A stretch of 15,898 nucleotides of DNA, taken from positions 1 through 15,898 of the forward strand of contig JASHPP010000674.1 of the NCBI GenBank assembly GCA_030038035.1, written 5' to 3'. Each line of letters opens with the position of its first letter. The stretch's first letter is position 1. This stretch comes from Trebonia sp. Its GTDB lineage: Bacteria > Actinomycetota > Actinomycetes > Streptosporangiales > Streptosporangiaceae. Both the position numbers and the translations under genes were made by a program. Positions 1-15,898 of the stretch are shown here, piece after piece. Below the pieces are notes generated by a model, which saw only the letters and a program-made list of their open reading frames with translations, made no database searches and had not been told where the DNA came from.

Positions 1-10
1 GTCACGCACA

Positions 11-86: not shown

Positions 87-92
87 TAGGGT
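87..92 (+). promoter_or_regulatory. Putative -10 element of a leaderless promoter
   Basis: TAGGGT fits the actinobacterial -10 pattern TAnnnT. It ends seven bases before the ATG at 100, the spacing that would place the transcription start on the A of the start codon. No clear Shine-Dalgarno sequence precedes this ATG, which agrees with leaderless expression. This is a pattern match only. Confidence 0.35.
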
Positions 93-99
93 CGAGCAC

Positions 100-375: not shown

Positions 376-380
376 CGGGC
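365..380. terminator. Weak hairpin between convergent genes
   Basis: GCCCG at 365-369 and CGGGC at 376-380 can form a 5-bp stem around a 6-base loop that contains the TAA stop of the plus-strand gene. It lies in the 16-base gap between convergent genes, where a bidirectional terminator would be useful. The stem is short and no T-tract follows, so support is weak. Confidence 0.25.
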
Positions 381-391
381 GCCGGCGCGGC

Positions 392-2236: not shown

Positions 2237-2398
2237 GGCGTTCTCCTTCGACTGCCAAGGTTCGGGCCGCTCTGGCACAGCCGGCCGCGAAGCCCGTCGC
2301 TGGTGGTTACCTTCGGCTACAACTGTGACACGAAACGATCACGCCCACTGGGACGGGGGCCGGCCTGCGGGCGGGGCATGCCGGCGGGCAGACGCCAC

Positions 2399-2436
2399 GG
2401 TCCGTTCGGAAAAATCTTCATTATCCCGAACGGACC
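2399..2436. promoter_or_regulatory. Perfect 11+11 palindrome, possible operator
   Basis: GGTCCGTTCGG at 2399-2409 and CCGAACGGACC at 2426-2436 form a perfect inverted repeat around a 16-base AT-rich core. It lies in the 227-base gap between the CODH large-subunit gene and the transketolase gene, about 163 bases upstream of the transketolase start. An operator for an independent tkt promoter is one reading. A hairpin that ends or processes the cox transcript is another, although no T-tract follows the stem in the direction of transcription. The rest of the gap (2237-2463) shows no gene. Confidence 0.5.
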
Positions 2437-2463
2437 GGCGCGCCTGTTCCCGGTCAGGGATGC

Positions 2464-4857
2464 TCAGCTGAGCGCCAGGTCGGGGCGGACCGGCCGGCCC
2501 TGGATGGCGCGCCACACGTTGGCCGGGGTCAGCGGCATGTCCGCGTGCACGACGCCGAACGGGGCGAGCGCGTCGATGACCGAGTTCACGACGGCCGCCG
2601 GCGAGCCGACGGTGGCCGACTCCCCGATGCCCTTGGCCCCGATCGGATGGTGCGGGGACGGCGTCACCGTCTGGCCGAGCTCGGGCGACGGGCACTCCAT
2701 CGACGTGGGCAGCAGGTAGTCCATGAAGGAGCCGCCCAGGCAGTTGCCGGCCTCGTCGAACACGATCGCCTGCATCAGCGCGATGCCGATGCCGTCGGCG
2801 ATGCCGCGGTGCACCTGGCCCTCGACGATCATCGGGTTGATCCGGACGCCGCAGTCGTCGACGGCGATGAAGCGCCGCACCCTGACCTCGCCGGTGCCCG
2901 GATCGACGTCGGTCACGCAGACGTAGGCCCCGAACGGGAACGTCAGGTTCGGCGGGTTGTAGACGGCGGACGCGTCCAGGTGCCCTTCGACCCCGTCCGG
3001 CAGCTCGAGCGTCGAGTGCGCGGCCATCGCGATCTCGGCGATGCCGCGGGCGGTGTCCGGGTCCCCGCGTACCCGCCACTTGCCGTCCAGCCACTCCAGG
3101 TCGTCGGCGGCCACCTCGAGCATCGCCGCCGCCACCAGGCGCGCCCGCTCCCGCACCTTGCGGGCCGCGACGACGGCCGCGGCCCCTGAGACGGGCGTGG
3201 ACCGCGATCCGTAGGTGCCAAGGCCGAACGGGGTCCGGTCGGTGTCGCCGTGCACGACCTCGACGTCGTCCGGCGACAGGCCAAGCTCGTGGGCCACGAG
3301 CTGCGCGAACGTGGTCTCGTGGCCCTGGCCCTGGGTCTGCACGGAGATGCCGAGCACCGCCTTGCCCGTCGGGTGCACCCGCAGGTCGGCGCCGTCGGCC
3401 ATGCCGAAGCCGAGGATGTCCATGTGGCTGCGCGGGCCGGCGCCGACGCCTTCTGTGAAAAAGCTCAGCCCGATGCCCATGTACTCGCCGCGGGCGCGCT
3501 TTTCGGCCTGCTCGCGGCGCAGGTCGTCGTAGCCGGCCATGTCCAGCGCCAGCCGCAGCGCGCGCGGGTAGTCGCCCGAGTCGTACTGCCAGCCGGTCGG
3601 GCCGGTGTAGGGGAACTGCTCGGGCTTGAGCAGGTTGCGCATCCTCAGCTCGGCCGGGTCCATCGACAGCTCGCGGGCCAGCATGTCGGTCAGCCGCTCG
3701 ACCAGGTACACGGCCTCGGTGACCCGGAACGAGCAGGAGTAGGCGACGCCGCCGGGCGCCTTGTTCGTATAGACGCCGGTGACCTCGCAGTACGCCGCCC
3801 GCATGTCGTAGGAGCCGGTGAAGATGTGGAAGAACCCGGCGGGGAACTTGGACGGCTGGGCGGTCGCGTTGAACGCGCCGTGATCGGCGAGCACCCGCGC
3901 GCGCAGCGCGAGGATCTTCCCGTCGGCGGTCGCGGCGATCTCGCCGTGCATGTGGTAGTCGCGCGCGAACGTGGTGGACATCAGGTTCTCTGACCTGTCC
4001 TCCATCCACTTCACCGGCCGCCCGGTCACCATCGAGGCGACGATGGCGCACACGTAGCCCGGGTACAGCGGCACCTTGGCGCCGAAACCGCCGCCAAGGT
4101 CGGGAGAGACGATCCGGATCTTGTGCTCGGGCACGCCGATGAGCGTGGCGTACAGCGTCCGGTGCGCGTGCGGCGCCTGGGTGGTCGACCACAGGGTCAG
4201 CTTGCCGGTGACGGCGTCCATGCCGGCGACGATCCCGCAGGTCTCCAGCGGGGCGGGATGGGAGCGCGGGTAGACCATGTCGCAGCCCACCACCACGTCC
4301 GCGGCGGCGAAGGCGGCGTCGGCGGCGGCCTGGTCCCCCGCGGCCCAGTCGAAGATCCGGTTGGAGCTGCGTCCGGGCAGGTCGTCCCGGACGAGCGGCG
4401 CGCCGGGGTCAAGCGCGGTCCTGGCGTCGATCAGCGGCGGCAGCGGCTCGTAGTCGACCGCGATCAGCTCGAGTGCGTCCCGCGCGGCGTACCTGTCGGT
4501 CGCGACCACGAAGGCGACCTCCTGGCCCTGGAACCGCACCTTGTCGGTCGCCAGCACCGCCTGCGCGTCGCCCGAGAGCGTGGGCATCCAGGCAAGGCCG
4601 CGCTGCGCCAGGTCCGCGCCGGTGAGCACGGCCATGACCTTGGGGTGGGCGAGCGCCGCGGTCGCGTCGACGGTCACGATCCTGGCGTGGGCGAGCGGGC
4701 TGCGCAGCACCGCGCCGTGCAGCATCCCCGGCAGGGAGATGTCGTCGACGAAGGTGCCCTGGCCCCTGATGAACCGCGCGTCCTCTTTGCGCGGCAGCGG
4801 CCCGTAGGCCCCGCCGGCCGCGCTGGCTGCGTTCCCTCCGTGATCACGGGCGTGCAT
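2464..4857 (-). CDS. coxL: Form I aerobic CO dehydrogenase, large (Mo-Cu) subunit
   Basis: Catalytic subunit of aerobic CO dehydrogenase (CO + H2O to CO2 + 2 electrons + 2 protons), a cytoplasmic xanthine-oxidase-family molybdoenzyme; 797 residues, normal for the family. The form I motif AYSCSFR is present, with Cys375 as the expected copper ligand. Other family motifs seen are DARFIRGQGTF near the N terminus, TTQAPH, GGGFGAKV, ADHGAF, GVYTNKAPGG, QTQGQGHETT, GTYGSRSTP, DDCGVRINPMI, and PHHPIGAKGIGES carrying the catalytic-base glutamate. I start it at the ATG at 4857, which has GGGAG at good spacing; the ATG at 4863 is possible. The start overlaps the end of coxS, indicating translational coupling. 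It resembles the characterised Oligotropha enzyme through the middle region (QFPYTGPTGWQYDSG, SFFTE). It is a distinct paralogue of the plus-strand coxL at 9209. CO activity is inferred from the motif. Confidence 0.93.
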   Translation of the reverse strand: MHARDHGGNAASAAGGAYGPLPRKEDARFIRGQGTFVDDISLPGMLHGAVLRSPLAHARIVTVDATAALAHPKVMAVLTGADLAQRGLAWMPTLSGDAQAVLATDKVRFQGQEVAFVVATDRYAARDALELIAVDYEPLPPLIDARTALDPGAPLVRDDLPGRSSNRIFDWAAGDQAAADAAFAAADVVVGCDMVYPRSHPAPLETCGIVAGMDAVTGKLTLWSTTQAPHAHRTLYATLIGVPEHKIRIVSPDLGGGFGAKVPLYPGYVCAIVASMVTGRPVKWMEDRSENLMSTTFARDYHMHGEIAATADGKILALRARVLADHGAFNATAQPSKFPAGFFHIFTGSYDMRAAYCEVTGVYTNKAPGGVAYSCSFRVTEAVYLVERLTDMLARELSMDPAELRMRNLLKPEQFPYTGPTGWQYDSGDYPRALRLALDMAGYDDLRREQAEKRARGEYMGIGLSFFTEGVGAGPRSHMDILGFGMADGADLRVHPTGKAVLGISVQTQGQGHETTFAQLVAHELGLSPDDVEVVHGDTDRTPFGLGTYGSRSTPVSGAAAVVAARKVRERARLVAAAMLEVAADDLEWLDGKWRVRGDPDTARGIAEIAMAAHSTLELPDGVEGHLDASAVYNPPNLTFPFGAYVCVTDVDPGTGEVRVRRFIAVDDCGVRINPMIVEGQVHRGIADGIGIALMQAIVFDEAGNCLGGSFMDYLLPTSMECPSPELGQTVTPSPHHPIGAKGIGESATVGSPAAVVNSVIDALAPFGVVHADMPLTPANVWRAIQGRPVRPDLALS

Positions 4858-5326
4858 CGTCATCGCTCCCGTCATGCCGCGCGGCCCACAGCACGGACCG
4901 GACGATGTTCTCATACCCCGTGCACCGGCAGATCTGCCCGGATATCGCCTCGCGTATCTCCGCCGCGGTCGGATCGGGGTTGCGGTCGAGCAGCCAGCGC
5001 GCGGTCATCATCATGCCCGGCGTGCAGAACCCGCACTGCAGCCCGTGACACGCGGAAAAGCCCTCCTGCACCGGGTCGAGCACGCCGTTCCTGGCCAGGC
5101 CCTCCACGGTCGTGATCCGCCTGCCGTCGGTCATCGCCGCCAGCACCGTGCACGACTTCACGGGCGTCTCGTCCAGCCACACCACGCAGGCGCCGCAGTT
5201 GGAGGTGTCGCAGCCCCAGTGCGAGCCGGTCAGGCCGAGCTCGTCGCGCAGGAAGTGGATGAGCAGCAGTCGCGGCTCGATCGCGGCCGTGTACTCCGCT
5301 CCGTTGACGGTCAGGGTGAGCTTCAT
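4844..5326 (-). CDS. coxS: CO dehydrogenase small subunit, two [2Fe-2S]
   Basis: Iron-sulfur subunit of 160 residues that passes electrons from the Mo-Cu centre to FAD. The N-terminal plant-ferredoxin-type domain has Cys39, 44, 47 and 59 (GCDTSNCGAC...KSC). The C-terminal helical domain has Cys98, 101, 133 and 135 (CGFCTPGM...CRCTGY) for the second cluster. Both cysteine sets are complete. The ATG overlaps the coxM stop as ATGA, and the gene's own end overlaps the start of coxL, so M, S and L are translationally coupled. Length and motifs are typical of CoxS/CutC. The C terminus (HDGSDDDARP) is acidic and unremarkable. Confidence 0.95.
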   Translation of the reverse strand: MKLTLTVNGAEYTAAIEPRLLLIHFLRDELGLTGSHWGCDTSNCGACVVWLDETPVKSCTVLAAMTDGRRITTVEGLARNGVLDPVQEGFSACHGLQCGFCTPGMMMTARWLLDRNPDPTAAEIREAISGQICRCTGYENIVRSVLWAARHDGSDDDARP

Positions 5327-6222
5327 GACGCGGGCCCGCCGGCGCGCGCGACGGCGGCGCGCAGCACCCTGGTGGTGAGTTCGCGCACGAGGTGGCGCTT
5401 GTAGTCGGCCGGGCCGCGCTGGTCGGTGACCGGGCGGCAGTGCTCGGCCGCGATCTGCCCCGCCCTGGCCAGGGTCTCCTCGTCGGCTGGGCGGCCGGTG
5501 AGGAAGTCTTCGGCCTCGGCGGCCACGAAATGCGCCGCGCCGACCGCGGTCAGCCCGATGCCGACGTCAGCGATGCTCTGCTTGCCACCACCGGCGTCCG
5601 CGAGCCAGACCGCCGCTCCGGCGGCGCCGACCGGCCAGTCGCCCGCCCGGCGGGCCACCTTCAGGTACGCGCTGCCGCCGCGCTGGCGTTCCGGCCGGAT
5701 CGGCAGCCTGATCTCTGTCAGCAGCTCGGACGGGCCGACCACGGTCTCGTACGGGCCGGTGTGGAACGCCCGGGCGCTTACCTCCCTGGTGCCGCCTGGG
5801 CCCTGGATGACCATGGTGCCCCGCACCGCCGCGAACGCCGCGGACAGGTCCTCGGAGGGGTCGGCCTGGCAGAGCGAGCCGCCCACGGTGCCCCAGTTCC
5901 TGACGATGGGATCGGCGATCACCCGCTCGGCGTCATGCATGATCTGGAAGTGCTCGCCCGCCAGCTGCGAGTCAAGCAGCTGAGCGTGCCTGGTCAGCGT
6001 GCCGATGCGCAGCTCGTCCCCGGCCCTGCCGATGTAGCACAGGTCGGTGAGCCCGTTGATGTCGACGAGCACTTCTGGCTGCGCCAGGCGCAGCTTCATC
6101 ATCGGGATCAGGCTGTGCCCGCCGGCCAGGATCTTGGCCTCAGGCCCGTACCTGGCCAGCAGCGCGAGCGCGTGCTGCACGCTGGTGGCCTTCTCGTACT
6201 CGACGTGCGCGGGAACCTGCAC
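5323..6222 (-). CDS. coxM: CO dehydrogenase medium subunit, FAD-binding
   Basis: FAD subunit (299 residues) that receives electrons from CoxS and delivers them to quinone or another acceptor. I start it at the GTG at 6222 (MQVPAHVEYEKATS), because GGGGGAGG lies five bases upstream; an ATG at 6303 would overlap the divergent regulator gene. FAD-binding motifs are AGGHSLIPMMKLR (near residues 32-44) and GTVGGSLCQADP (near 107-118), both in the canonical form. The C-terminal CO_deh_flav_C-type domain ends in DYKRHLVRELTTRVL. It is first in the minus-strand M-S-L operon, the order typical of form I clusters, and is divergent from the LysR gene at 6297. Confidence 0.93.
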   Translation of the reverse strand: MQVPAHVEYEKATSVQHALALLARYGPEAKILAGGHSLIPMMKLRLAQPEVLVDINGLTDLCYIGRAGDELRIGTLTRHAQLLDSQLAGEHFQIMHDAERVIADPIVRNWGTVGGSLCQADPSEDLSAAFAAVRGTMVIQGPGGTREVSARAFHTGPYETVVGPSELLTEIRLPIRPERQRGGSAYLKVARRAGDWPVGAAGAAVWLADAGGGKQSIADVGIGLTAVGAAHFVAAEAEDFLTGRPADEETLARAGQIAAEHCRPVTDQRGPADYKRHLVRELTTRVLRAAVARAGGPAS

Positions 6223-6240
6223 TACGACCTCCCCCGGCCC

Positions 6241-6254
6241 GGGGCCGCGGCCCC
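6241..6254. promoter_or_regulatory. GC palindrome in divergent coxM/lysR gap
   Basis: GGGGCCGCGGCCCC is a perfect 14-base palindrome centred in the 74-base gap between the divergently transcribed coxM (start 6222) and LysR gene (start 6297). LysR-type proteins commonly bind such shared gaps. In DNA this GC-rich, G/C-only palindromes arise by chance fairly often, and it lacks the T-N11-A form of a LysR box. Confidence 0.25.
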
Positions 6255-6296
6255 TGGTTGGAGAGGTCCCGGCGATGGGCCACACTGGATCTTGAC

Positions 6297-7244
6297 ATGA
6301 CACTCACCCAGCTGAACGCGTTCGTCCTGGTGGCCCGCCTGGGCTCGGTGCGGGCCGCCGCCGGCGCGCTTGGCGTGAGCGAGCCGGCCGTGTCGCAGGC
6401 TCTCACGGCGCTGCGCAACTACCTGGGCGACCAGCTGATCACCCGCGGCCCCGCGGGCATGACGCTGACGCCCGGCGGCTCCCGGCTGCTGGCTACCGCC
6501 TCCCAGATCGTGGTGCTCGGCGCCGAAGCGCACGCCGCGGTGCGGGCCGCGCAGGGCGCGCCGGAGCAGCTGCGGATCGTCGCCACCCCGACGTTCGCCG
6601 AATTCGTGGTCGGCCCGCTGGTCGAGGCGTTCAGCAGGCGGTTCCCCGGGCCCGTCGAGGTCTCCACGGGCGTGGCCGCCTCCGGCGAGCATGCCGTGCT
6701 TGTCGCGAACCGGCTCGCCGACGTCGCCTTCGGCCCGGGTGTCACGGGCGAGAACGAGATGCCGATCGTCAGCGAGCCCATCTTCAAGTACCGGCTGGCC
6801 GTGGTCGCCGGGGGGCACGGCAGGCCGCAGGGGGCGCCCAGGCAGTGGCGGTGGCTGGTGGACCCGAACGCGACCGACCCCGCCACCGCGACAGCCAGGC
6901 TGCTTGCCCGGCTGGGCGTTCCCGACGGCAACATCCGGGTCTTGCCGAGCCTGACCGCCGCGTGGGCGGCCGCCGCTGACGGCGCGGGCGTCGCGCCCGC
7001 GATCGAGCACCTGATTTCCGCCCAGCTGCGGCGCGGTGAGCTGTCGATCGTCGAGATGCCAGGGCTGCCCATGGACGAGTGCTGGTACGCGACGTTCCTT
7101 GAGCGGGAGTACCGCAGCAGCGCGGCCGGCGCGCTGCGCCGGTTCCTCGGCACCCCTGACGCCATGCAGCTGATGCGGTCGCCCGCCGCCGGCGTGCCGC
7201 CGTCCCGGTTCAAGCCCCCGGTGTATGTCACCATCTGGAGCTGA
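6297..7244 (+). CDS. LysR-type transcriptional regulator, CutR-like position
   Basis: DNA-binding regulator of 315 residues. The N-terminal winged helix-turn-helix covers about residues 1-60 (LTQLNAFVLVARLGSVRAAA, LGVSEPAVSQALTALRNYLG, ITRG). A LysR substrate-binding domain follows from about residue 88 (LRIVATPTFAEFVVGPLVEA) to about 290. The ATG at 6297 is chosen because it begins the normal LysR N terminus; no good Shine-Dalgarno is seen. It lies between two CODH operons, divergent from one and upstream of the other. In Mycobacterium sp. JC1 a LysR protein, CutR, is needed for CODH expression, so control of one or both operons is a reasonable inference. The ligand is unknown. The C terminus (RSPAAGVPPSRFKPPVYVTIWS) is a short extension beyond the usual fold. 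Confidence 0.9.
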   Translation: MTLTQLNAFVLVARLGSVRAAAGALGVSEPAVSQALTALRNYLGDQLITRGPAGMTLTPGGSRLLATASQIVVLGAEAHAAVRAAQGAPEQLRIVATPTFAEFVVGPLVEAFSRRFPGPVEVSTGVAASGEHAVLVANRLADVAFGPGVTGENEMPIVSEPIFKYRLAVVAGGHGRPQGAPRQWRWLVDPNATDPATATARLLARLGVPDGNIRVLPSLTAAWAAAADGAGVAPAIEHLISAQLRRGELSIVEMPGLPMDECWYATFLEREYRSSAAGALRRFLGTPDAMQLMRSPAAGVPPSRFKPPVYVTIWS

Positions 7245-7290
7245 AAACCCGCCATCAGCCATCATGTTCACCCAGCCGGACGTGTCGAGT

Positions 7291-7304
7291 TAAGCGTTAG
7301 CTTA
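7291..7304. promoter_or_regulatory. TAAGC-N4-GCTTA dyad, candidate LysR operator
   Basis: TAAGC at 7291-7295 and GCTTA at 7300-7304 form a perfect dyad in a locally AT-rich patch of the 164-base gap between the LysR gene and the 104-residue gene that leads the plus-strand cox genes. Interrupted dyads starting with T and ending with A are typical of LysR sites, although spacing here is T-N12-A rather than T-N11-A. No convincing -35/-10 pair is seen; CTATAC near 7339 is a possible -10 relative. Confidence 0.4.
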
Positions 7305-7408
7305 TTTGGCTGTTGCGGCGTGAGACACCGGGGCGCACTATACGGATGAAATTTCGTTGGCGACGATGCCGGCCTGGAGGCACCGTCCTATCGGGCGGGA
7401 GGCTGCGC

Positions 7409-7723
7409 ATGCGCATCGAGTCCAGCGGCCACAGCACGGGCAATCCGCGCCTGTACGAGCTGATCGAGCACGCGCCCAAGACCGGGAAGAGCCCCACGGT
7501 GTGGGCCTGGCCCGAGCTCGTCGACTATCTCAAGATCGCCGGGCAGCCGGTCTCCGGGCCGTGGCCGCCGCACCAGGAGCCGCGGCCTGACCCCGACTAC
7601 GAGGCGGGGCCGGTCGCGGTGGCCGACCCGCACTCGGTGCCCGCCGCATCGCCCGCCGAGACGCCTGCCGCGAGGCCCGCCACGGGGGCGGCTCCGGCCG
7701 GTCCCCCACACGACGCGGCCTGA
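7409..7723 (+). CDS. Unrecognised 104-residue protein upstream of coxM
   Basis: I do not recognise this protein. The ATG at 7409 is chosen for GGGAGG six bases upstream; an in-frame TTG at 7313 would add arginine-rich sequence that looks non-coding. The N-terminal half (about residues 1-55) seems folded, with a tryptophan/proline-rich segment (PRLYELIEHAPKTGK, TVWAWPELVDYLKIAG, GPWPPH). The C-terminal half is a low-complexity proline/alanine tail. There is no membrane segment, no cysteine pair and no known catalytic motif. It ends 42 bases before coxM and has the same orientation, so it is probably the first gene of the plus-strand cox operon. A role in CODH expression or assembly is only guilt by association. 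Confidence 0.65.
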   Translation: MRIESSGHSTGNPRLYELIEHAPKTGKSPTVWAWPELVDYLKIAGQPVSGPWPPHQEPRPDPDYEAGPVAVADPHSVPAASPAETPAARPATGAAPAGPPHDAA

Positions 7724-7765
7724 CCTGCGATTCACGTCATTTCCCGCCCACCCCGGAGGCAGCGA

Positions 7766-8641
7766 ATGTACCCATCGCGGTTCCGCTATGAGGCACCGCA
7801 TTCCCTGGACGAGGCCATCAGCCTGCTGCACAATGGCGGCGACTACGCCAAGGTGCTCGCCGGCGGCCAGAGCCTCGTCCCGCTGATGAAGCTGCGCTTC
7901 GCATCGCCGGAGCTCGTGGTCGACATCAACAACGTCCCCGGCCTCGGCTACCACCGGGCCGACCCCGACGGCACGCTCCGCATCGGGGCGCTGTGCCGCC
8001 ACGCGGATCTTGAGCACTCCGACCTGCTGCCGGGCACCCAGCCCACGATGGCCGCCGCGGCGCCGCTCATCGCTGACCCGATCGTGCGCAACCGGGGCAC
8101 GCTGGTCGGCTCGCTCTGTCACGCGGATCCGCAGGGCGACTGGGCGTCGGTCGTGGTCTCGCTCGGCGGTGCCGTGGTGGCGGCCGGGCCGGCCGGCCGG
8201 CGGGTGATCCCGATGGCGGACTTCGTGACCGGGCCGTTCCAGAACGTGCTGGCGCCGGATGAGATCGCGGTCGAGGCGGTCATCCCGCCCGCCAAAGGTG
8301 CCCGCGCGGGCGGCTACCTCAAGCTGGAGCGGCGGGTCGGCGACTTCGCCACGGTCGGCGTCGCGGTCGCGATCGAGACCTCGGGCGAGGTCGTGACCAG
8401 GGCCGGGATCGCGCTGACCGGCGTCGGCGGGTCCACGATCGCGGCGACCGACGCGGCCCAGGCGCTGGTGGGCCAGCCGCTGACCGCCGACACCATCAAC
8501 CGGGCGGCCGGTCTCGCCGCCGCGGCCGCGCAGCCGAGAACCGATCACCGCGGCAGCGCCGAGTACAAGCGGCACATGGTGGCGACGTTCGTCGAGCGCA
8601 TCTTGTCCCGGGCCGATCACGAGGCGGAAAGGGCAGCCTGA
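7766..8641 (+). CDS. coxM: CO dehydrogenase medium subunit, FAD-binding (second copy)
   Basis: FAD subunit of 291 residues in the second CODH set. GGAGG lies six bases before the ATG. The first FAD motif is [13 protein letters not shown] (near residues 32-44). The second reads [15 protein letters not shown], with Val where the usual TxGGS has its first Gly. The CoxM C-terminal domain closes with [15 protein letters not shown]. It stands first in an M-S-L triplet, and coxS starts one base after its stop codon. It differs throughout from the minus-strand coxM at 5323-6222 (for example AGGQS versus AGGHS), so this is an old paralogue or a separately acquired copy, not a recent duplication. Confidence 0.94.
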
Positions 8642-8642
8642 G

Positions 8643-9173
<531 letters not shown>

Positions 9174-9208
9174 CGACGGCGCTGAGACCAGACGGGAAGA
9201 GTAGGACA

Positions 9209-11596
9209 ATGTCGCAGGCAGTAGACGAGATCAAGATCGGCGGAATCGGCGCGAGCCGCAAGCGCGTGGAAGACGACCGCTTCATCCGCGGCAAGGGCAA
9301 CTACACCGACGACATCGTGCTGCCCGGCATGCTGCACATGGAGATCCTGCGCAGCCCGCTGGCGCACGCGCGGATCAGGTCCATCGACACCAGCAAGGCC
9401 TGGCAGATCCCCGGCGTCCACCTGGTGCTGACCGGCGAGATGATGGCCAGCAGGAACCTGGCGTGGATGCCGACCCTGTCCTACGACACGCAGGCCGTGC
9501 TCGCCACCGACAAGGTGCGCTTCCAGGGCCAGGAGGTCGCCTGCGTCATCGCCGACGACCCGTACATCGCCAAGGACGCGTGCGAGGCGATCGAGGTCGA
9601 CTACGAGCCGCTGCCGGTCATCGTCAACCCGACCCAGTCGCTGGCCCCTGACGCGCCGGTGATCCGCGACGACAAGGAGAACCAGCCCGACAACGTCATC
9701 TACAACTGGGAGGTCGGCGACGGCGAAGGCACCGACCGCGCGTTCGCGCGGGCGGACCTCGTGTCCAGGCTGGAGCTGCACTACCCGCGCTCGCACCCGT
9801 CGCCGATCGAATGCTGCGGCTCGATCGCCGACTTCAACAGGGCCACCTCCAAGCTCACCGTCTACATGACCACGCAGGCCCCGCACATCATCCGGGCCGC
9901 GGTCGCGATGGTGGCGGAGCTGCCCGAGCACATGATCCGGATCATCTCGCCGGACATCGGCGGTGGCTTCGGCAACAAGGTGCCGGTCTACCCGGGGTAC
10001 GTCTGCTCGATCCTGGCCTCGATCCTGCTGGAACGGCCGGTCAAGTGGATCGAGGACAAGTCGGGCAACCTGATCTCGACCGGGTTCGCCCGCGACGTGT
10101 ACCTCAAGGGCGAGATCGCGCTGCGCAAGGACGGCAAGATCCTGGCCGTCCGGATGCACACCGACGCCGACCACGGGGCGTTCTTCTCCGACGCCCAGCC
10201 GAGCAAGTTCAAGATCGGGCTGATGCACTCGGCCTTCGCCGCCTACGACATCCCGGTCGCCCACCTGACCGCGCGCGGGGTGTACACCAACAAGGCGCCG
10301 GGCGGGGTCGCCTACCGGTGCTCGTTCCGGGTGACCGAGGCGATGTTCTTCCAGGAGCGGATGATCCAGGCCGCGGCCAGCGACCTGGGCATGGACCAGG
10401 CGGCGTTCCGCCGGATGAACTTCGTGGCCGACGACGACTTCCCGCACCGCACGCCGTTCGGCTTCCTCACCGACTCAGGCCAGTACGCCAAGTGCCTGGA
10501 CGTCGGCCTGCAGGCGATCGGGTACGAGGACTTCCGGCAGCGCCAGGAGGAGGCCCGCTCCCGCGGCCGGCTGCTCGGCCTGGGCATCTCCACGATGACC
10601 GAGCCGCTCGGGGCCGGCAACAGCCGGGAGTTCGACATCCTCGGCATCAAGATGTTCGACTCCGCCGAGCTCAAGGTGCACATGACGGGCAAGGCGATCC
10701 TGCGGACAGGCGCGCGCACCCAGGGCCAGGGACACGAGACCACCTGGGCGCAGATCGTGGCCCACGAGCTCGGCATCCCGGCCGAGGACGTGGTGGTCGA
10801 GGAGGGCGACACCGACACCGCCCCGTTCGGCATGGGCACGTACGCGTCGCGCAGCACGCCGGTGGCCGGCGCGGCGGTGGCGATGGTGTCCCGCAAGATC
10901 CGCGCCAAGGCCCGCAAGCTGGCCGCGCACCTGCTTGAGGTCTCGGAGGAGGACGTCGACTGGGAGCTCGGCCGGTTCTACGTGCGCAGCGCCCCGGACC
11001 GCGGGGTCACCATCCAGGAATGCGCGATCGCCGCCTACAGCAACATGCCCGATGGCATGGAGCCTGGCCTGGAGAACACCGCCTACTACGACCCGCCGAA
11101 CCTTACCTGGCCGTTCGCGGTCTACATCATCACGGTCGAGGTAGACCAGAAGACCGGCGTGTGGGACGTGCTGAACGCGGTCGCGGTCGACGACTGCGGC
11201 GTCCGCATCAACCCGATGATCGTGGAAGGCCAGATCATGGGCGGGCTCACCGAGGCGTACGCGATGTCCAACATGCAGTTCATCACGTTCGACGCCGACG
11301 GCAACTGCGTCGGCTCGAACTACATGGACTACCTGCTGCCCACCGCGTGGGAGACGCCGGGCTGGGAGCTGCACAGCGAGGTCGTCACGCCGTGCCCGCA
11401 CCATCCGCTCGGCGCCAAGGGGATCGGCGAGTGCGCGGCCGTCGGCGGGCCTGCCGCGTTCGTGAACGCCGTGATCGACGCGCTGTCCGGCACCGGTGTC
11501 CGCAACATCGACATGCCGCTGCTGCCCGACCGGGTCTGGGAAGCCCTGACCTACCACCGCGACGTCTCCGGCGCGCCGCCGGTCCGGGGGGACTAG
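9209..11596 (+). CDS. coxL: Form I CO dehydrogenase, large (Mo-Cu) subunit (second copy)
   Basis: Catalytic molybdoenzyme subunit of 795 residues. The form I motif AYRCSFR is exact, with Cys371 as expected copper ligand. TTQAPH, GGGFGNKVPVYPGYV, ADHGAF, GVYTNKAPGG, RTQGQGHETT, DDCGVRINPMI and GAKGIGE are all present. AGAGTAGGAC precedes the ATG. Compared with the Oligotropha enzyme and the copy at 2464, several otherwise conserved stretches differ: TPFGFLTDSG in place of a GWxYDSG form, STMTE for SFFTE, HMTG for HPTG, and PCPHHPLGAKGIGEC in place of PSPHHPIGAKGxGES. The essential residues remain, so it should be a CODH, perhaps with altered properties. It is followed six bases later by the XdhC-YHS gene, which ties it to its own maturation functions. 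Confidence 0.94.
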   Translation: MSQAVDEIKIGGIGASRKRVEDDRFIRGKGNYTDDIVLPGMLHMEILRSPLAHARIRSIDTSKAWQIPGVHLVLTGEMMASRNLAWMPTLSYDTQAVLATDKVRFQGQEVACVIADDPYIAKDACEAIEVDYEPLPVIVNPTQSLAPDAPVIRDDKENQPDNVIYNWEVGDGEGTDRAFARADLVSRLELHYPRSHPSPIECCGSIADFNRATSKLTVYMTTQAPHIIRAAVAMVAELPEHMIRIISPDIGGGFGNKVPVYPGYVCSILASILLERPVKWIEDKSGNLISTGFARDVYLKGEIALRKDGKILAVRMHTDADHGAFFSDAQPSKFKIGLMHSAFAAYDIPVAHLTARGVYTNKAPGGVAYRCSFRVTEAMFFQERMIQAAASDLGMDQAAFRRMNFVADDDFPHRTPFGFLTDSGQYAKCLDVGLQAIGYEDFRQRQEEARSRGRLLGLGISTMTEPLGAGNSREFDILGIKMFDSAELKVHMTGKAILRTGARTQGQGHETTWAQIVAHELGIPAEDVVVEEGDTDTAPFGMGTYASRSTPVAGAAVAMVSRKIRAKARKLAAHLLEVSEEDVDWELGRFYVRSAPDRGVTIQECAIAAYSNMPDGMEPGLENTAYYDPPNLTWPFAVYIITVEVDQKTGVWDVLNAVAVDDCGVRINPMIVEGQIMGGLTEAYAMSNMQFITFDADGNCVGSNYMDYLLPTAWETPGWELHSEVVTPCPHHPLGAKGIGECAAVGGPAAFVNAVIDALSGTGVRNIDMPLLPDRVWEALTYHRDVSGAPPVRGD

Positions 11597-11601
11597 AAGT
11601 C

Positions 11602-12570
11602 ATGATGGCCGACGAGAGCTGGGGCGTCCTGGAGCAGGCCGCGGAGCTGGCGCGCCGCGGCGAGGCGTTCGCGCTGGCGACCGTGGTGTGGCGGCAGGGA
11701 CCGTCGTCGGGGAAGAAAGGCTCGCGGGCGATCATCACCGCGAGCGGTGAGCTGCACGGCTGGATCGGCGGGGCCTGCGCCGAGCCCGCGGTCATCCGCG
11801 AGGCCCGCCTGGTGATCGAGTCCGGCGACGCCCGCCTGCTGCTCCTGGGCAGCCCGGAGCAGTTCGGCGGCGCCGTTCCCGAGGGGATGGCCGTCGTGCC
11901 GATCTCCTGCCAGAGCGAGGGAGCGCTCGAGGTGTACATCGAGCCGGTGCTGCCCGCCCCGCGCCTCGTGGTCGTGGGCGGCTCGCCGATGGCGCAGACG
12001 CTCACGAGGCTGGCGCAGACGCTGGGCTGGCACGCCGACCTGATCGCGGGCGAGGACTTCGGCGCCGAGGACGCGGACCGGCACTCGATGGTCGTCGTCG
12101 CCACGCAGGGACACAACGACGAGGAAGTGCTCGAGCGGGCCGCGGCCGCCCGGCCGGCCTACCTTGGCCTGGTCGGCTCGCAGAAGCGGGGCACGGCGGT
12201 GCTCGGCTACCTTGCCGACCGGGGCGTGCCCGCCGAACAGCTGGACCACGTCCATGTGCCGGCCGGGCTCGACCTGGGCAGCACGACGCACACCGAGATA
12301 GCGGTCGCGATCCTGGCCGAGCTGGTGCAGCTGCGCGCCTCCGGCGCGATAGTCACCGCCGCGACGACGGCCGCGCCGGCCGAGCGGGCGGCGCGCGGCA
12401 CGGCGCCCGCCGCCGAGGCGATCGACCCGGTGTGCGGGATGACGGTGGTCACCGCCCAGGGCGGCGGGCTGCCGTTCGAGCACGACGGAACCACCTACTA
12501 CTTCTGCTGCGCCGGCTGCCGCCGGGCATTCGCGAACGACCCCGCCGCCTACGCGCACGCACCACGATGA
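11602..12570 (+). CDS. XdhC/CoxI-family cofactor maturation protein fused to YHS domain
   Basis: Protein of 322 residues. An N-terminal XdhC_CoxI domain (about residues 8-75) contains GPSSGKKGSRAII and HGWIGGACAEPAVIREA. A Rossmann-like XdhC C-terminal domain follows (about 115-245: APRLVVVGGSPMAQTLTRLA, YLGLVGSQKR, DLGSTTHTEIAVAILAEL). An alanine-rich linker then leads to a C-terminal YHS domain (about 277-320: IDPVCGMTV, YYFCCAGCRRAF, DPAAYA). XdhC proteins bind molybdenum cofactor and support its sulfuration before insertion. YHS domains bind metals and occur in copper-handling proteins. The fusion next to a Mo-Cu enzyme suggests a combined Mo/Cu maturation role, which is inference. The Cys of GGAC takes the place of the usual GGCVE. 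Start: the ATG at 11602, with a second ATG immediately after; the Shine-Dalgarno is weak (AGAAG), and the gene is probably coupled to coxL. Confidence 0.88.
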   Translation: MMADESWGVLEQAAELARRGEAFALATVVWRQGPSSGKKGSRAIITASGELHGWIGGACAEPAVIREARLVIESGDARLLLLGSPEQFGGAVPEGMAVVPISCQSEGALEVYIEPVLPAPRLVVVGGSPMAQTLTRLAQTLGWHADLIAGEDFGAEDADRHSMVVVATQGHNDEEVLERAAAARPAYLGLVGSQKRGTAVLGYLADRGVPAEQLDHVHVPAGLDLGSTTHTEIAVAILAELVQLRASGAIVTAATTAAPAERAARGTAPAAEAIDPVCGMTVVTAQGGGLPFEHDGTTYYFCCAGCRRAFANDPAAYAHAPR

Positions 12571-12598
12571 CAGGCCCCACGGTGAAGAGAGACACCCA

Positions 12599-13186
12599 AT
12601 GCTGATCAAGAACGAGTTCGAGGTCCCCGAACCGGTCGACAAGGTGTGGGAGTTCTTCCAGAACATCCCGCAGGTGGCCACCTGCCTGCCTGGCACCGAG
12701 CTGACCGAGGACCTCGGCGACGACAAGTACAAGGGGCGGGTCGCGATCCGGATGGGGCCGGTCCGGCTGCAGTTCGCCGGCACGGCCGACATCACCGAGC
12801 GGAACGAGGCGGCCAAGCGGATCGTCGTCAACGCGGCCGGCGCGGAGGAAAAGGGCCGCGGGCAGGCGAGCATGGTGGTGACGGCGACGCTGGCGCGGGC
12901 CGGCCGCGGCACGCGGGTCGACGTCACCCAGGACCTGCAGCTGGCAGGCGCCGCCGCGCAGTACGGGCGCGGCATGATCGCCGACGTCAGCTCGGTGCTG
13001 ATGCACGACTTCGCGGTCAACCTGCAGGACCGCATCGAGCGGATCGACCGGGGCGAGACGGCTGAGCAGATCGCCGCGGCGGCGGCCACCCCGGCGCGCG
13101 GCCTCACCCTCGGGCTGCGGGCCGCGCTGATGGCCCTGGCCCGGGTCTTCCGCCGGTTCTTCCTCCCGTACCACGCGACAACCTGA
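12599..13186 (+). CDS. coxG: CoxG, SRPBCC-fold membrane/quinone link for CODH
   Basis: Protein of 195 residues. Residues 1-150 are the CoxG SRPBCC domain (NEFEVPEPVDKVWEFFQNI, VATCLPGTELTE, KYKGRVAIRMGPVRLQFAGTAD), a hydrophobic-cavity fold. Known CoxG proteins are needed to attach CODH to the cytoplasmic membrane and connect it with quinone. The C-terminal 40 residues form an alanine-rich linker and a basic amphipathic helix (LGLRAALMALARVFRRFFLP) suited to membrane contact. It lies 28 bases downstream of the XdhC-YHS gene, and the first of the small membrane genes follows 21 bases later. This is the only coxG in the window, so it may serve both CODH copies. Confidence 0.92.
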   Translation: MLIKNEFEVPEPVDKVWEFFQNIPQVATCLPGTELTEDLGDDKYKGRVAIRMGPVRLQFAGTADITERNEAAKRIVVNAAGAEEKGRGQASMVVTATLARAGRGTRVDVTQDLQLAGAAAQYGRGMIADVSSVLMHDFAVNLQDRIERIDRGETAEQIAAAAATPARGLTLGLRAALMALARVFRRFFLPYHATT

Positions 13187-13207
13187 GCTGACATAAAGGA
13201 GAAGGCC

Positions 13208-13462
13208 ATGGTCCTGTGGTGGATCGGCAGCGTGATCTTGCTTGTGGTGGTGCTGCCCGTCGTCGTCTACCTGCTCAACCGGGTCCTCGCGGCGACCGAG
13301 CGGGTGCGCGCCGCGACCGACGACATCCTGGCCGGCGGGGTCGCCCTGATCGGCAAGCTCGACGGCGTCCCCGACGGGCTCGCCGAGACGGACTCGACCA
13401 TCGAGGCAGTGAAGGTCGGCGCGGTCCGGTACGCGGGCTCGGTCGCCAAGCTTCTCGGCTGA
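13208..13462 (+). CDS. Small single-span membrane protein 1 of cox-linked set
   Basis: Unrecognised 84-residue protein with a strong Shine-Dalgarno (AAAGGAGAAGGCC before ATG). One membrane helix covers about residues 3-23 (LWWIGSVILLVVVLPVVVYLL). A tail with early arginines follows (NRVLAATERVRAATDD), predicting N-out/C-in topology, then a helical region with GKLDGVPDGLAETDSTIEAVK. The VPxxL...T/N pattern recurs in the next gene, so these look like paralogues. It lies directly after coxG in one unbroken operon. No known cox gene (C, H, K, B) matches it by eye. A scaffold or docking role at the membrane is inference. Confidence 0.75.
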   Translation: MVLWWIGSVILLVVVLPVVVYLLNRVLAATERVRAATDDILAGGVALIGKLDGVPDGLAETDSTIEAVKVGAVRYAGSVAKLLG

Positions 13463-13491
13463 CGCGGATAAGCGGATAAGGAGCACCTGAC

Positions 13492-13719
13492 ATGCCAGCA
13501 GTCGCCTGGTTCACGCTGATCGTCGCCGCGCTGATCATCGCGATCACCGCGGTGGGCCTGCTGCGGGTGATCTTCCACCTGCGGGCGGTCCGCAAGACGC
13601 TGGCCGCCACCACCGGCGGCGTGCAAGCCGTCGCCAGCCTGACCAGCACCGTGCCCGAGCGGCTTACCTCGGTCAACGCGAACCTGAAGCCCGTCCGCGA
13701 CTTCTGCGAAACGATCTGA
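13492..13719 (+). CDS. Small single-span membrane protein 2 of cox-linked set
   Basis: Unrecognised 75-residue protein; AAGGAG lies about eight bases before the ATG. The membrane helix is at about residues 5-27 (AWFTLIVAALIIAITAVGLL). A basic stretch follows (RVIFHLRAVRKTL), so the tail should be cytoplasmic, then a polar helix ending STVPERLTSVNANLKPVRDF. The segment VPERLTSVNANLKPVR parallels VPDGLAETDSTIEAVK of the preceding protein in position and pattern. The final residues DFCETI contain the only cysteine. Function unknown; it shares the operon with CODH and CoxG. Confidence 0.75.
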   Translation: MPAVAWFTLIVAALIIAITAVGLLRVIFHLRAVRKTLAATTGGVQAVASLTSTVPERLTSVNANLKPVRDFCETI

Positions 13720-13732
13720 GAGGAGCCTTTCA

Positions 13733-14005
13733 GTGCAATCGCATGTCCTCGCCGCGGGATACAGCACCACCGGCTGGGTGGTGGGCTACACGATCGGCGG
13801 CGTGATCGTCCTCGTCGTCGTGGCGCTCGTGGTCCCGATCCTGCTGCTCGCCCGCTCGATCGGCAACGAGGCGCCGAAGATCAACGCCGGGCTGACCGAC
13901 GCCGTGCACAACACCGCGCCGCTCGCGGCGCTGCGCACCACGATCGAGCACGCAACGATCATCATCGGCGGGCTGCAGCGCGGCCGGGCCAGGCTGGGAG
14001 GTTAG
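13733..14005 (+). CDS. Small single-span membrane protein 3 of cox-linked set
   Basis: Unrecognised 90-residue protein. The start is GTG at 13733, seven bases after AGAGGAG. A longer N-terminal region (about 15 residues, with GYSTTGW) precedes one membrane helix at about residues 18-40 (YTIGGVIVLVVVALVVPILLLA). The tail (RSIGNEAPKINAGLTDAVHN, then TIEHATIIIGGLQRGRARLGG) is amphipathic and ends basic. It is more divergent than its two upstream neighbours but has the same helix-then-tail plan. The next gene starts two bases after its stop, so the two are probably translationally coupled. Confidence 0.75.
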   Translation: MQSHVLAAGYSTTGWVVGYTIGGVIVLVVVALVVPILLLARSIGNEAPKINAGLTDAVHNTAPLAALRTTIEHATIIIGGLQRGRARLGG

Positions 14006-14007
14006 CC

Positions 14008-14313
14008 ATGCACGCGCTCGCGATGTCAGCATTGGCGATGTCGGGCACCGAGCACACCCTGTGGGTGTGGGCCCTCATCGTCGGCCTGATCGTCCTGGTC
14101 GCGGTCGCGGCCCTGCTCAGCCTGCTCATCTACCTCGTGCAGGTCATCGACCGCCGGGTGGTGACGGTCCGCGACACGCTCAAGGCGGCCAAGGCGAACA
14201 CCGCCGACACCGTGCTGATCCCCCAGGTCGCCACCGGCGTGGACGCGGTCCTCGCCGAGGGCCTGCAGCACCATCTGTTCCTCGGCCGGGTGCTCGGAAA
14301 GGTGAAATCTTGA
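14008..14313 (+). CDS. Small single-span membrane protein 4, last residue altered by IS
   Basis: Unrecognised 101-residue protein; GGGAGG precedes the ATG. The membrane helix spans about residues 19-45 (VWALIVGLIVLVAVAALLSLL). A tail follows with DRRVVTVRDTLKAAKANTADT, then IPQVATGVDAVLAEGLQHHL and FLGRVLGKVKS. The tail is predicted cytoplasmic by the basic residues after the helix. Its stop codon TGA at 14311-14313 lies inside the inserted element. Rejoining the flanks gives GTG AAA TCC CGA TGA, so the native protein would end KVKSR and its stop would overlap the start of the next gene. The protein is therefore nearly intact. Confidence 0.75.
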   Translation: MHALAMSALAMSGTEHTLWVWALIVGLIVLVAVAALLSLLIYLVQVIDRRVVTVRDTLKAAKANTADTVLIPQVATGVDAVLAEGLQHHLFLGRVLGKVKS

Positions 14314-14450
14314 CATCCTCCCTCGCCTGGAGGCGCGGGATTCCAGCTACTCACATCCGAGAGGAGGCAAGCAGTTGAGGTTCGCGGTTCACCGGCCCGG
14401 CTTCCCGGTGGCCTCCCCGCGCAGTCACGGCGTGCCCCGCCGCGATGTTC
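14287..14450 (-). ncRNA. Putative omega (reRNA) guide RNA of TnpB
   Basis: TnpB elements of this family make a guide RNA from the 3' end of tnpB through the right end into flanking DNA. Here the right-end hairpin 14320-14339 (CCC/CGCC pairing GGCG/GGG around TGGA) would be the terminal scaffold stem, and the guide would be host sequence from 14306 downward, beginning TTCACCTTTCC on the minus strand. The 5' limit is a guess. The call rests on family knowledge and position, not on a recognised covariance model. Confidence 0.4.
14320..14339. repeat. Right-end subterminal hairpin of IS element
   Basis: CCC-T-CGCC pairs with GGCG-C-GGG around a TGGA loop, one mismatch in the stem. It lies between the tnpB stop (14351) and the element end. 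On the minus strand the following bases, GAGGATGTCAAG, are of the type often seen at right ends of actinobacterial IS605-like elements. Confidence 0.6.
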
Positions 14451-15550
14451 CTTGCCGCGTTTACGTCAGCGTTGCAGGCAAAGCCGCAGGCAGTGCACCG
14501 GAAGAGGGCTTGGCTCTCGCGCGACTTCCGGTCCACCTTCCCGCACTTCGAGCACCGCTGGCTCGTCAGCGCGGGCTTGATCTTCTCCACCCGGCCGGGC
14601 GCCTTCTCCGCCAACCGGCGGACCAGCAGCCCCCATCCGGACCGCAAGATGGCCCGGTTCAGTCCGGCTTTCGCGCGGACGCTGCGGCCCGGGCTCTCCC
14701 GCGTGCCCTTACCAGACCGGGTCATGGCCCCGATCCGGAGGTCTTCCACCCTGATTATGTCGAACCGGCGCGCAATATCCGTACTGACCTTCTCGGCCCA
14801 GTCCTTGCGCCGGTCGGTTTCCCGGGCGTGCAACTGGGCGATGGCATGCTTCACCCGAGTGCGGCGGTTCGATCCGCGCCTGGCGCGGGCGAGTTCGCGT
14901 TCCAGGCGCCGCATGCGCCTGCGCTCCTGAGCGGTCAGGCCGGGGACGTGCAGCAGTTCTCCTGTCGACAAGGCGGCAGCGACCGTAACACCGCGGTCGA
15001 TGCCCACGGCCTGTCCGTTACCTGGCGCTGGAAGCGGTTCGGGGACGGCGGCGAAGGCGACATGCCAGCGCCCGGCCCGGTCCCTGGTCACCCGGTAGGA
15101 CTTCACGCCCGGCGGCATCGTGCGCGACCAGCGGAACTGTACCCACCCCGCCTTCGGTACCCGCACCTGGCCGACATGGCGGGATGCCCGGCGCACATCC
15201 CATTGCCGACCGCGGCGCCCGACGATCCGGAATCCCTCGTCCCGCCCGGCCTTGCGCCAGCCCGGCCGCCGGGCCGGGTTGCGCGGGTCGAAGAATGCGG
15301 TCATTGCCCGTGCAAAGTCCCGCAGCGCCTGCTGCTGGACCATCTGGGAGCCTGCAGCCAGCCACGGATGCTCTTTCCGTGCCTGGGTCAGCTGCCGGCA
15401 TTGCTCCAGGTAGCCCGGCGCGCCCGCCCGGCCCGGGCGCCAGTGAGTATGCTGCTCGACCGCGAGGTTCCATACGTACCGGGCGTGGGCGCAATGATCC
15501 CGCAGCACCACCTCCTGGGCGGGCGTGGGGAGCAGCCGATACCGGGACAT
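14351..15550 (-). CDS. tnpB: TnpB RNA-guided nuclease (IS200/IS605 family)
   Basis: Protein of 399 residues, an intact TnpB, the ancestor-type relative of Cas12. An N-terminal helix-turn-helix region opens with YRLLPTPAQEVVLRDHC. The RuvC catalytic residues are all present: Asp185 (VGIDRGV), Glu269 (IRVEDLRIGAM) and Asp362 (CNADVNAARN). A zinc finger is formed by Cys333/336 (CSKCGK) and Cys352/355 (CTACG). TnpB cuts DNA at the excised or empty target site under guide-RNA direction and so helps retain the element. The ATG at 15550 gives the usual N terminus, without a clear Shine-Dalgarno. It is antisense to the host operon. With no tnpA in the element, movement would need a transposase supplied elsewhere. 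Confidence 0.92.
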   Translation of the reverse strand: MSRYRLLPTPAQEVVLRDHCAHARYVWNLAVEQHTHWRPGRAGAPGYLEQCRQLTQARKEHPWLAAGSQMVQQQALRDFARAMTAFFDPRNPARRPGWRKAGRDEGFRIVGRRGRQWDVRRASRHVGQVRVPKAGWVQFRWSRTMPPGVKSYRVTRDRAGRWHVAFAAVPEPLPAPGNGQAVGIDRGVTVAAALSTGELLHVPGLTAQERRRMRRLERELARARRGSNRRTRVKHAIAQLHARETDRRKDWAEKVSTDIARRFDIIRVEDLRIGAMTRSGKGTRESPGRSVRAKAGLNRAILRSGWGLLVRRLAEKAPGRVEKIKPALTSQRCSKCGKVDRKSRESQALFRCTACGFACNADVNAARNIAAGHAVTARGGHREAGPVNREPQLLASSRM

Positions 15551-15595
15551 GCGAACACAATAACGATGACCACTGACATTCCTGAGGAGGTGAAG

Positions 15596-15637
15596 CGGCG
15601 TTTCCTCCCTGGTCTGAAGGCCAGGGTTTCCACGCCG
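15596..15637. repeat. Left-end subterminal hairpin of IS element
   Basis: An outer stem CGGCG (15596-15600) pairs with CGCCG (15633-15637). An inner stem CCCTGGTC (15607-15614) pairs with GGCCAGGG (15619-15626), with one G-T pair, around TGAA. It lies 46 bases upstream of the tnpB start and two bases from the proposed element end, as for left ends of IS605-type elements. Confidence 0.6.
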
Positions 15638-15645
15638 CGATCCCG

Positions 15646-15898
15646 ATGACCTTGCTAGTCGTCCTGACCGTGGTCGAGATCGTCGTGCTGATCGCGGCCC
15701 TCGCGTTCTACCTGTTCTGGGTCGGCACCCTGCTCGCCCGCATCGCGACCAACCTGGAGGAGTGCGCGGAGATCGTCCGCGGCATCGTGGCCGACGCCGC
15801 GCTCATCGGCCCTGGCGTCGAGCACATCAACGAGACCGGCGGCGTCGTCGCCGGCGCGCTGCCGCTGCTGTACGGGATGGCCGAGGAGATCGTCACCG
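15646..15898 (+). CDS. Small membrane protein 5 of cox-linked set (partial, runs off window)
   Basis: Open to the window end, 84 codons seen with no stop. It begins MTLLVVLTVVEIVVLIAALA with one membrane helix over about residues 3-26, then LLARIATNLEECAEIVRGIV, a helical tail, and a segment IGPGVEHINETGGVV that echoes the VPxxL...N pattern of proteins 1 and 2. No Shine-Dalgarno precedes the ATG because the IS element ends seven bases upstream. In the reconstructed uninterrupted DNA, AAGGTG would lie eight bases before this ATG, and the start would overlap the stop of the previous gene as ATGA. Expression in the present arrangement is doubtful. Function unknown. Confidence 0.65.
   Translation, partial: MTLLVVLTVVEIVVLIAALAFYLFWVGTLLARIATNLEECAEIVRGIVADAALIGPGVEHINETGGVVAGALPLLYGMAEEIVT

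Follow-up and report, generated by a model that had tools for sequence, protein, structure and literature searches.

A five-gene module of single-span membrane proteins behind coxG in a Trebonia carbon monoxide dehydrogenase operon and its homologues beside [NiFe]-hydrogenase genes

Introduction

A question of current interest in the uptake of atmospheric CO and H2 is the route by which cytoplasmic carbon monoxide dehydrogenase (CODH), and likewise the high-affinity hydrogenases, gain access to the quinone pool. The present analysis concerns five small genes, termed p1 to p5, that lie behind coxG at the end of a 15,898-nucleotide stretch of DNA from Trebonia sp. (NCBI GenBank assembly GCA_030038035.1, contig JASHPP010000674.1, positions 1 to 15,898 of the forward strand), the whole of which is referred to here as the window. 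Among the closest described systems are the group 1l [NiFe]-hydrogenase clusters, in which five short predicted transmembrane (TM) proteins, HylTM1-5, lie between the subunit genes, and the group 1m clusters, which carry tetratricopeptide repeat (TPR) and BirA genes as well as a pair of small proteins of 82-92 amino acids (aa) with one TM segment each (PMC9561532). HucM of the Huc hydrogenase is presented as a tube of coiled coils with a hydrophobic lining, probably a menaquinone conduit, that is peripherally associated with the membrane (PMC10017518). CoxG is described as menaquinone-binding and as the membrane and menaquinone partner of CODH (PMC13240472, citing Kropp et al. 2025), and the CODH of Mycobacterium smegmatis is called primarily cytosolic in PMC6794299.

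A preliminary description of this DNA had taken the five genes for an undescribed set belonging to CODH and had proposed a multi-subunit membrane platform for that enzyme. The platform stands as the best-supported function; the restriction to CODH and the generality among CODHs do not, and the novelty is reduced, with homologues found beside [NiFe]-hydrogenases and the HylTM1-5 set already reported (PMC9561532). By its resemblance to the HylTM1-5 layout of group 1l the module is thus partly described already, and no report of it in CODH operons was found in the open-licence literature available, which is not proof of absence. As the module also accompanies certain hydrogenases, it is probably a shared device holding trace-gas enzymes at the membrane, and such a device would link two unrelated enzyme families to one membrane structure.

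The five genes and their linkage to coxG

The genes in question are, in window coordinates:

13208-13462, plus strand: p1, an 84-aa single-span protein, fourth slot in the hydrogenase gene order
13492-13719, plus strand: p2, a 75-aa single-span protein, fifth slot in the hydrogenase order
13733-14005, plus strand: p3, a 90-aa single-span protein, first slot in the hydrogenase order
14008-14313, plus strand: p4, a 101-aa single-span protein, second slot in the hydrogenase order
15646-15898, plus strand: p5, cut by the window end after 84 codons, third slot in the hydrogenase order

The expected five small genes behind coxG are all present; they are not consecutive as had been claimed, a TnpB element splitting p4 from p5. 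The median length of p5 in relatives is 120 aa, and p2 has 75 aa in 77 of the 80 loci described below. The GC content at third codon positions of p1-p5 is 0.92-0.98, the nonsynonymous substitution rate lies below the synonymous rate for all five in every comparison with six relatives, and p1-p5 are genuine genes under purifying selection. None reaches the cut-off of any Pfam or NCBIfam family. Membership of DUF2561 (PF10812), the nearest family match, was rejected at 22.3 bits over p3 residues 8-62 against a cut-off of 27.8, as was membership of DUF948 (PF06103), with 14.4 bits for p2 against 37.2. A protein search with p4 gave 4158 relatives at E<=0.001 among 4200 candidates, with a Trebonia entry among the 120 matches listed; a search of p4 against plasmids gave no match.

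Scanning species genomes with a p4 alignment yielded 191 confirmed loci, the best 80 of which were kept. In all 80 p1-p5 are collinear, with CoxL in 64 and CoxG in 72, just upstream of p1 at a spacing of -4 to 143 nt (median 13). Five of the eight loci lacking CoxG (L001, L034, L052, L068, L072) begin at a contig end and three (L024, L054, L075) do not, such that coxG is directly upstream in 72 of the 75 loci where the flank can be judged. Linkage to coxG in other Actinobacteria, a check set beforehand, is therefore upheld with three true exceptions among the closest relatives. In L024 and L054 the module is flanked by MarR-type genes on its upstream side and by P450 genes on its downstream side, L075 has a major facilitator superfamily (MFS) gene nearby, and in the module tree all three copies nest within the CODH clade near the window as derived members. 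The metagenome-assembled genomes of L024 and L054 each hold another copy, one beside coxG (L009) and one in a full cox locus (L040). The loci are largely actinobacterial; L055 and L069 are titled Acidobacteria and Poseidoniales archaeon, by misbinning or transfer. Among cultured soil actinomycetes, Trebonia kvetii (L012) and Amycolatopsis saalfeldensis (L051) are examples in which the operon is complete. Since the 80 loci are the closest relatives, a sample chosen independently of the module was needed.

Distribution across genomes

Two such samples were used, 396 genomes of the Actinomycetota, the phylum to which Trebonia kvetii (G001, closely related to the window) belongs, and 200 genomes of the order of that species. 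Across the phylum p4 was found in 37 genomes, p1 in 38 and both in 35 (Fisher 3e-44, uncorrected for relatedness), and this co-inheritance holds also where p1-p2 and p3-p5 lie apart. The p4 match in G303 (22 bits in a 554-aa frame, L139 containing no further gene of the module) was judged false; it was left out of the counts of genomes with the module and kept in the 37 and the Fisher value. Some module genes occupy the same fetched stretch as CODH or hydrogenase genes in 34 of the 36 genomes with a credible p4, the other two being G130, with a matching CoxL on other contigs, and G398; in three of the 34 (G172 in L125, G269 in L140, G386 in L135) parts of the module lie away from the enzyme genes. 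Only some first-look candidates were scored in the phylum searches (12 of 56 in G001), which leads to misses, G082 giving no p4 match despite the full layout in L146.

Presence of the module follows the clade of the enzyme. With genomes counted as having the module when p1 or p4 is found, and genome sets and identities compiled by hand, the module is present in 12/12 genomes with a CoxL at least 70% identical to that of the window, in 2/22 at 60-69%, where the loci adjoin hydrogenase genes (G023 in L131, G205 in L128), and in 8/26 at 54-59%. When hydrogenase large subunits are ranked by identity to that of L112 the corresponding figures are 7/7 at 65% or more, 11/12 at 50-64% and 6/35 below 50%. 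In the order sample CoxL was detected at E<=1e-180 in 43 genomes, and the three with a CoxL of 88-92% identity are exactly the three with p4. In the other 40, with a best identity of 54-63%, p4 was not found among at most 25 candidates scored per genome, and the proposal that the module is a general feature of CODH falls with that result. The pattern indicates that the module marks certain CODH clades and not CODH at large.

Homologous modules beside hydrogenases and a second type of CODH

The weaker p4 matches of the phylum sample fall in gene clusters of other kinds. Five small genes lie between hydS and hydL, the hydrogenase small and large subunit genes, in L115, L122, L136, L137 and L146 in the order p3-p4-middle gene-p1-p2, and the same set is seen in L133 and L138 with one flank only visible. 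The middle gene scores 9-17 bits, best as p5 in L122, L133 and L138 and as p2 in the other four, its slot being assigned by position. L113, in which four weak matches (10-35 bits) lie upstream of adjacent hydS-hydL, does not have the 1l layout. In L118, L120 and L128, p3-p4-p5 is divergent from hydS-hydL and p1-p2 lies beyond TPR and BirA-like genes; the names 1l-like and 1m-like are given to relatives by gene arrangement as in PMC9561532 only. Pfam hydrogenase subunits were identified in L112, L118, L120 and L124, and for the large subunits of L112 and L124 the best match among solved structures is 5aa5. Hydrogenase genes occur together with the module and with three larger coiled-coil membrane proteins in L111, L112, L116 and L127. 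In a second CODH layout the module genes are ordered as in the hydrogenase loci, coxG-p3-p4-p5-p1-p2-coxM-S-L-coxE in L121, with L134 resembling it and having no CoxG match.

Sets of three larger membrane proteins encoded in tandem, of about 200-280 aa in those measured and weakly similar to the p proteins, occur near modules of both enzyme kinds, at L112:10831-12937 and also in L111, L116, L123, L126, L127, L130, L147 and L148; those of L112 give below-cut-off matches to DUF948 and to laminin-type coiled coils. In L119 the hydrogenase genes beside p3-p4-p5 are split into many small frames, by decay or poor assembly.

Slot homology was assessed by profile-profile comparison, with 1l-like slots defined by gene order in seven loci (L113 being dropped). 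Each of the CODH p1-p4 profiles matches its own 1l-like slot best, at 97, 95, 94 and 97%, with CODH p3 also close to 1l slot p4 (93%) and CODH p5 a near tie between 1l slot p2 (92%) and its own slot (91%). Against a pooled hydrogenase set (labelled 1m, in fact 20 hydrogenase-linked or BirA/TPR-linked loci and not 1m alone, matches above 25 bits only) the own slot is best for all five CODH profiles at 98-99.7%, values partly built in because the members were labelled with CODH profiles. Assignment by gene order keeps the 1l-like slots free of this circularity, and these too match their own slots of the pooled set best, 5/5. When the CODH profiles are compared among themselves, with all reversed-profile controls at or below 4%, only p3 and p4 are clearly homologous (97%), the other nine pairs reaching at most 56%, which rules out p1-p5 as one family on these profiles alone; the VP/IP-x-x-hydrophobic...N/D pattern that several of the proteins had been said to share is accordingly not one motif. 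Off-slot matches with the wider profiles suggest two subfamilies, p1/p3/p4 and p2/p5.

In a midpoint-rooted tree of the joined module proteins (41 taxa, ultrafast bootstrap) the modules sort largely according to their partner. The first CODH clade, together with L126/L130 and its own copies beside P450 and MFS genes, receives a support of 100, as do the grouping of the second CODH type with the orphan L135 and the 1l-like modules. The 1m-like rows form no single clade. The second CODH type groups with a hydrogenase set and L117 (89) and not with the first CODH clade, which, with moderate tree support, hints at more than one switch of partner. The orphan p3-p4-p5-p1-p2 module of L117 has a transketolase gene nearby (L117:4005-6713, minus strand).

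Membrane topology and the C-terminal ends

The proteins p1-p5 each carry a single hydrophobic segment near the N-terminus, preceded by a mean of 0-0.3 Lys or Arg and followed by 1.4-4.2 within the next 20 residues, and this distribution suggests an N-out/C-in topology. The single N-terminal membrane helix of the preliminary description therefore stands, and its cytoplasmic helical tail is probable. In an AlphaFold2 model of p5 (L012 sequence) one helix runs from 2 to 86, mostly with a predicted local distance difference test score above 90, followed by a short low-confidence tail helix (predicted template modelling score, pTM, 0.44); p1 of the window is modelled as helices 2-50 and 54-83, interrupted immediately ahead of the VP site (pTM 0.49). 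The hydrophobic period of the tails is 3.45-3.55 in all five, with p<=0.009 for p1, p2, p3 and p5 in 2000 shuffles.

The C-terminal segments are among the most conserved within CODH (p1 73-84, 0.87; p2 61-72, 0.81; p4 73-96, 0.86-0.87; p5 61-84, 0.82-0.83), some TM-proximal segments being equally conserved (p1 25-36, p3 25-36). Compared with the hydrogenase set the C-terminal segments score mostly 0.15-0.31 and the TM parts 0.38-0.47, and in each of the five proteins the value obtained by subtracting identity to the hydrogenase set from within-CODH conservation increases towards the C-terminus (Spearman 0.30-0.48, p<=0.01). CODH p5 additionally carries an extension with a conserved PASGxRRSRL motif. 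A His-His pair in p4, considered as a universal cofactor ligand, is invariant in 46 CODH rows and absent from the p4 of hydrogenase loci L111, L112, L120, L122 and L137; it is hence CODH-specific at most.

Function of the module

The reading we favour, with fair rather than high confidence, is that p1-p5 are an exchangeable five-helix membrane stalk docking a cytoplasmic CODH or hydrogenase, in a manner somewhat resembling that of HucM in Huc. In its favour are the linkage to CoxG and CoxL, the co-inheritance of p1 and p4, the dependence on the clade of the enzyme, the slot homology, the long helices modelled for p1 and p5, the periodicity of the tails and the growing difference between enzymes along the chain. 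As five subunits of one membrane module, each would span the membrane once, N-terminus out, and extend into the cytoplasm, the compartment in which CODH and CoxG act, as one long and largely amphipathic helix. The five helices would probably bundle into a stalk, the membrane-distal C-terminal ends and the PASGxRRSRL extension of p5 docking this CODH clade or its CoxG, and the docked enzyme would be held at the membrane, where menaquinone can be reduced. With other C-terminal ends the module would serve 1l-like, 1m-like and other [NiFe]-hydrogenases and the second CODH type; it is the occurrence of the same module with different C-terminal ends across enzymes that makes it behave as an exchangeable docking unit. 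CODHs with the module are then predicted to be membrane-bound and to lose this upon deletion of the module, whereas relatives without it need not be membrane-bound. A wider form of this proposal is tentative: an enzyme-independent five-protein stalk of two paralogous subfamilies might be the common quinone-delivery and docking device of several trace-gas oxidases (two CODH clades and several [NiFe]-hydrogenase groups), having changed partner more than once, with mainly the far C-terminal ends retooled for each enzyme.

A number of observations weigh against the docking stalk. Asp and Glu exceed Lys and Arg on the C-terminal side of the TM segment in p1, p3 and p5, the tail periodicity of p4 is not significant (p 0.10), some distal segments are common across enzymes (p5 61-72, 0.40; LGG at the p3 end, 0.62), and within-CODH conservation, taken alone, increases significantly from the N- to the C-terminus in p3 and p4 only. 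The five genes are found without a nearby cox gene in L024, L054 and L075, p3-p4-p5 stands alone in L125, L140 and L142, and CODHs of 54-63% identity are mostly without the module, which is thus not needed for CO oxidation in general. In the strain of the window itself p5 may be poorly expressed, as the TnpB insertion abolishes the p4-p5 overlap. Profiles of p1, p4 and p5 gave no convincing solved relative among PDB chains, and Foldseek with the p5 model gave no match. Finally, a permissive twin-arginine pattern applied to the N-terminal 140 residues of 19 untrimmed hydS frames matched four (L122, L128, L136, L138); these matches lie, by eye, before or at the likely hydS starts and are too weak to count as evidence for a twin-arginine translocation signal. 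The PDB matches of p5 (best 2.8e-6) are mostly designed coiled coils and were read as coiled-coil-like composition.

Several of these results bear on other functions. By analogy with HucM the five amphipathic helices could form a hydrophobic tube conducting menaquinone, passed in the case of CODH to CoxG, a possibility we consider rather unlikely even though the long helices predicted, their amphipathic tails and the precedent of the hydrophobic coiled-coil tube (PMC10017518) are in keeping with it. Also in its favour, the module serves hydrogenases with no CoxG-profile match in the fetched stretch (for example L112, L120 and L122); against it, HucM is described as peripherally membrane-associated and is a single protein of 188 residues (PMC10017518), and CoxG itself is described as menaquinone-binding (PMC13240472).

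The maturation of Mo-Cu (molybdenum-copper) CODH differs from that of [NiFe] enzymes, and the module is common to both, which counts against a platform that holds assembly factors at the membrane outside the working enzyme, as do the many related CODHs without the module; we regard such a platform as improbable despite the CoxE-like, BirA-like and TPR genes near many modules and the XdhC-type gene preceding coxG in the window. A channel, signalling or other membrane complex without contact to CODH, co-inherited for regulatory reasons, could account for the module copies that have MarR, P450 or MFS genes as neighbours and no cox genes, and is very improbable given that the C-terminal ends vary with the partner enzyme and that the cox-free copies nest within the CODH clade as derived members.

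A TnpB element between p4 and p5

The element that separates p4 from p5 comprises:

14310-15645, minus strand, ends approximate, about 1.34 kb: TnpB-only insertion element, absent from 11 relatives, with an inverted repeat at 15595-15638
14351-15550, minus strand: tnpB, RNA-guided endonuclease family (NCBIfam guided_TnpB, NF040570, 227.6 bits against a cut-off of 100; Pfam OrfB_IS605 and Cas12f1-like_TNB)

The TnpB family score above cut-off identifies the insert as an IS200/IS605-type TnpB element, and the inverted repeat at one of its ends is imperfect. At the junction in the window AAAGGTGAAATC is followed by TTGACATCC and the remainder of the insert, about 1.34 kb in total, and then by ATGACC, the start of p5. 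No insert lies between p4 and p5 in any of the 11 relatives compared, where the two genes overlap by 4 nt in seven and by 1 nt in two and are 70 and 95 nt apart in L017 and L046; across the wider set the 4-nt overlap is found in 70 of 79 loci. The reading frame of p4 is intact in the window, its stop codon apparently being supplied by the element. Judged by eye, no clear ribosome site remains ahead of the p5 of the window.

The surrounding cox genes

Upstream of p1 on the plus strand the window contains:

7766..8641, plus strand: coxM, flavin adenine dinucleotide (FAD) subunit (Pfam FAD_binding_5, CO_deh_flav_C)
8643..9173, plus strand: coxS, 2Fe-2S subunit (Pfam Fer2, Fer2_2)
9170..11596, start approximate, plus strand: coxL, Mo-Cu CODH large subunit (Pfam MoCoBD_1/2, Ald_Xan_dh_C; AYRCSFR, the form I motif)
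11590..12570, start approximate, plus strand: XdhC/CoxI-type protein with a C-terminal YHS domain (Pfam XdhC_CoxI, XdhC_C, YHS)
12599..13186, plus strand: coxG (Pfam COXG, PF06240, 55.6 bits against a cut-off of 22.2, 6.3e-15)

The active-site motif AYXCSFR in CoxL defines form I CODH, and with an AYRCSFR CoxL adjoining CoxM and CoxS the operon is recognised from its sequence as one of form I Mo-Cu CODH. The coxG profile matches PDB 8uds_D, a CoxG family protein, at 1.1e-35; coxG searched against viral contigs gave no match, nor did an Rfam scan of the window at the gathering threshold. A second, divergent form I coxM-coxS-coxL set, its coxL carrying AYSCSFR and its coxS assigned by position alone, lies on the minus strand at 2464-6303, with a LysR-type regulator between the two cox sets (6258-7244, plus strand) and a transketolase gene near the second (392-2278, minus strand).

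Comparison with known systems

HylTM1-5 of group 1l, as described in PMC9561532, resembles the window set in consisting of five short TM proteins; the 1l-like loci of that layout analysed here have five genes homologous to p3-p4-p5-p1-p2 in that order. The window genes are likewise five short single-TM proteins as a set; they do not lie between hydrogenase small and large subunit genes and instead follow coxG in the order p1-p5, serve CODH, and have CODH-specific C-terminal ends and a p5 tail absent from the hydrogenase set. As judged from gene order and profile matches the window set is a homologous module and not a 1l cluster. The two small proteins of the group 1m clusters have counterparts here in homologues of p1-p2 that are about as long (82 and 86 aa in L120, for example) and lie close to BirA-like and TPR genes; in contrast to the published description, p3-p4-p5 is also present in these loci, divergent from the hydrogenase genes (L114, L118, L120, L128). 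CoxG (PF06240; PDB 8uds_D) is encoded by the neighbouring gene but belongs to a different, unrelated protein family. The likeness to HucM, in which amphipathic helices link an enzyme to the membrane, is one of analogy only: no Huc chain is among the PDB profile matches of p1, p4 and p5, and HucM is one protein forming a tetramer (PMC10017518), compared with the five TM proteins of the module described here.

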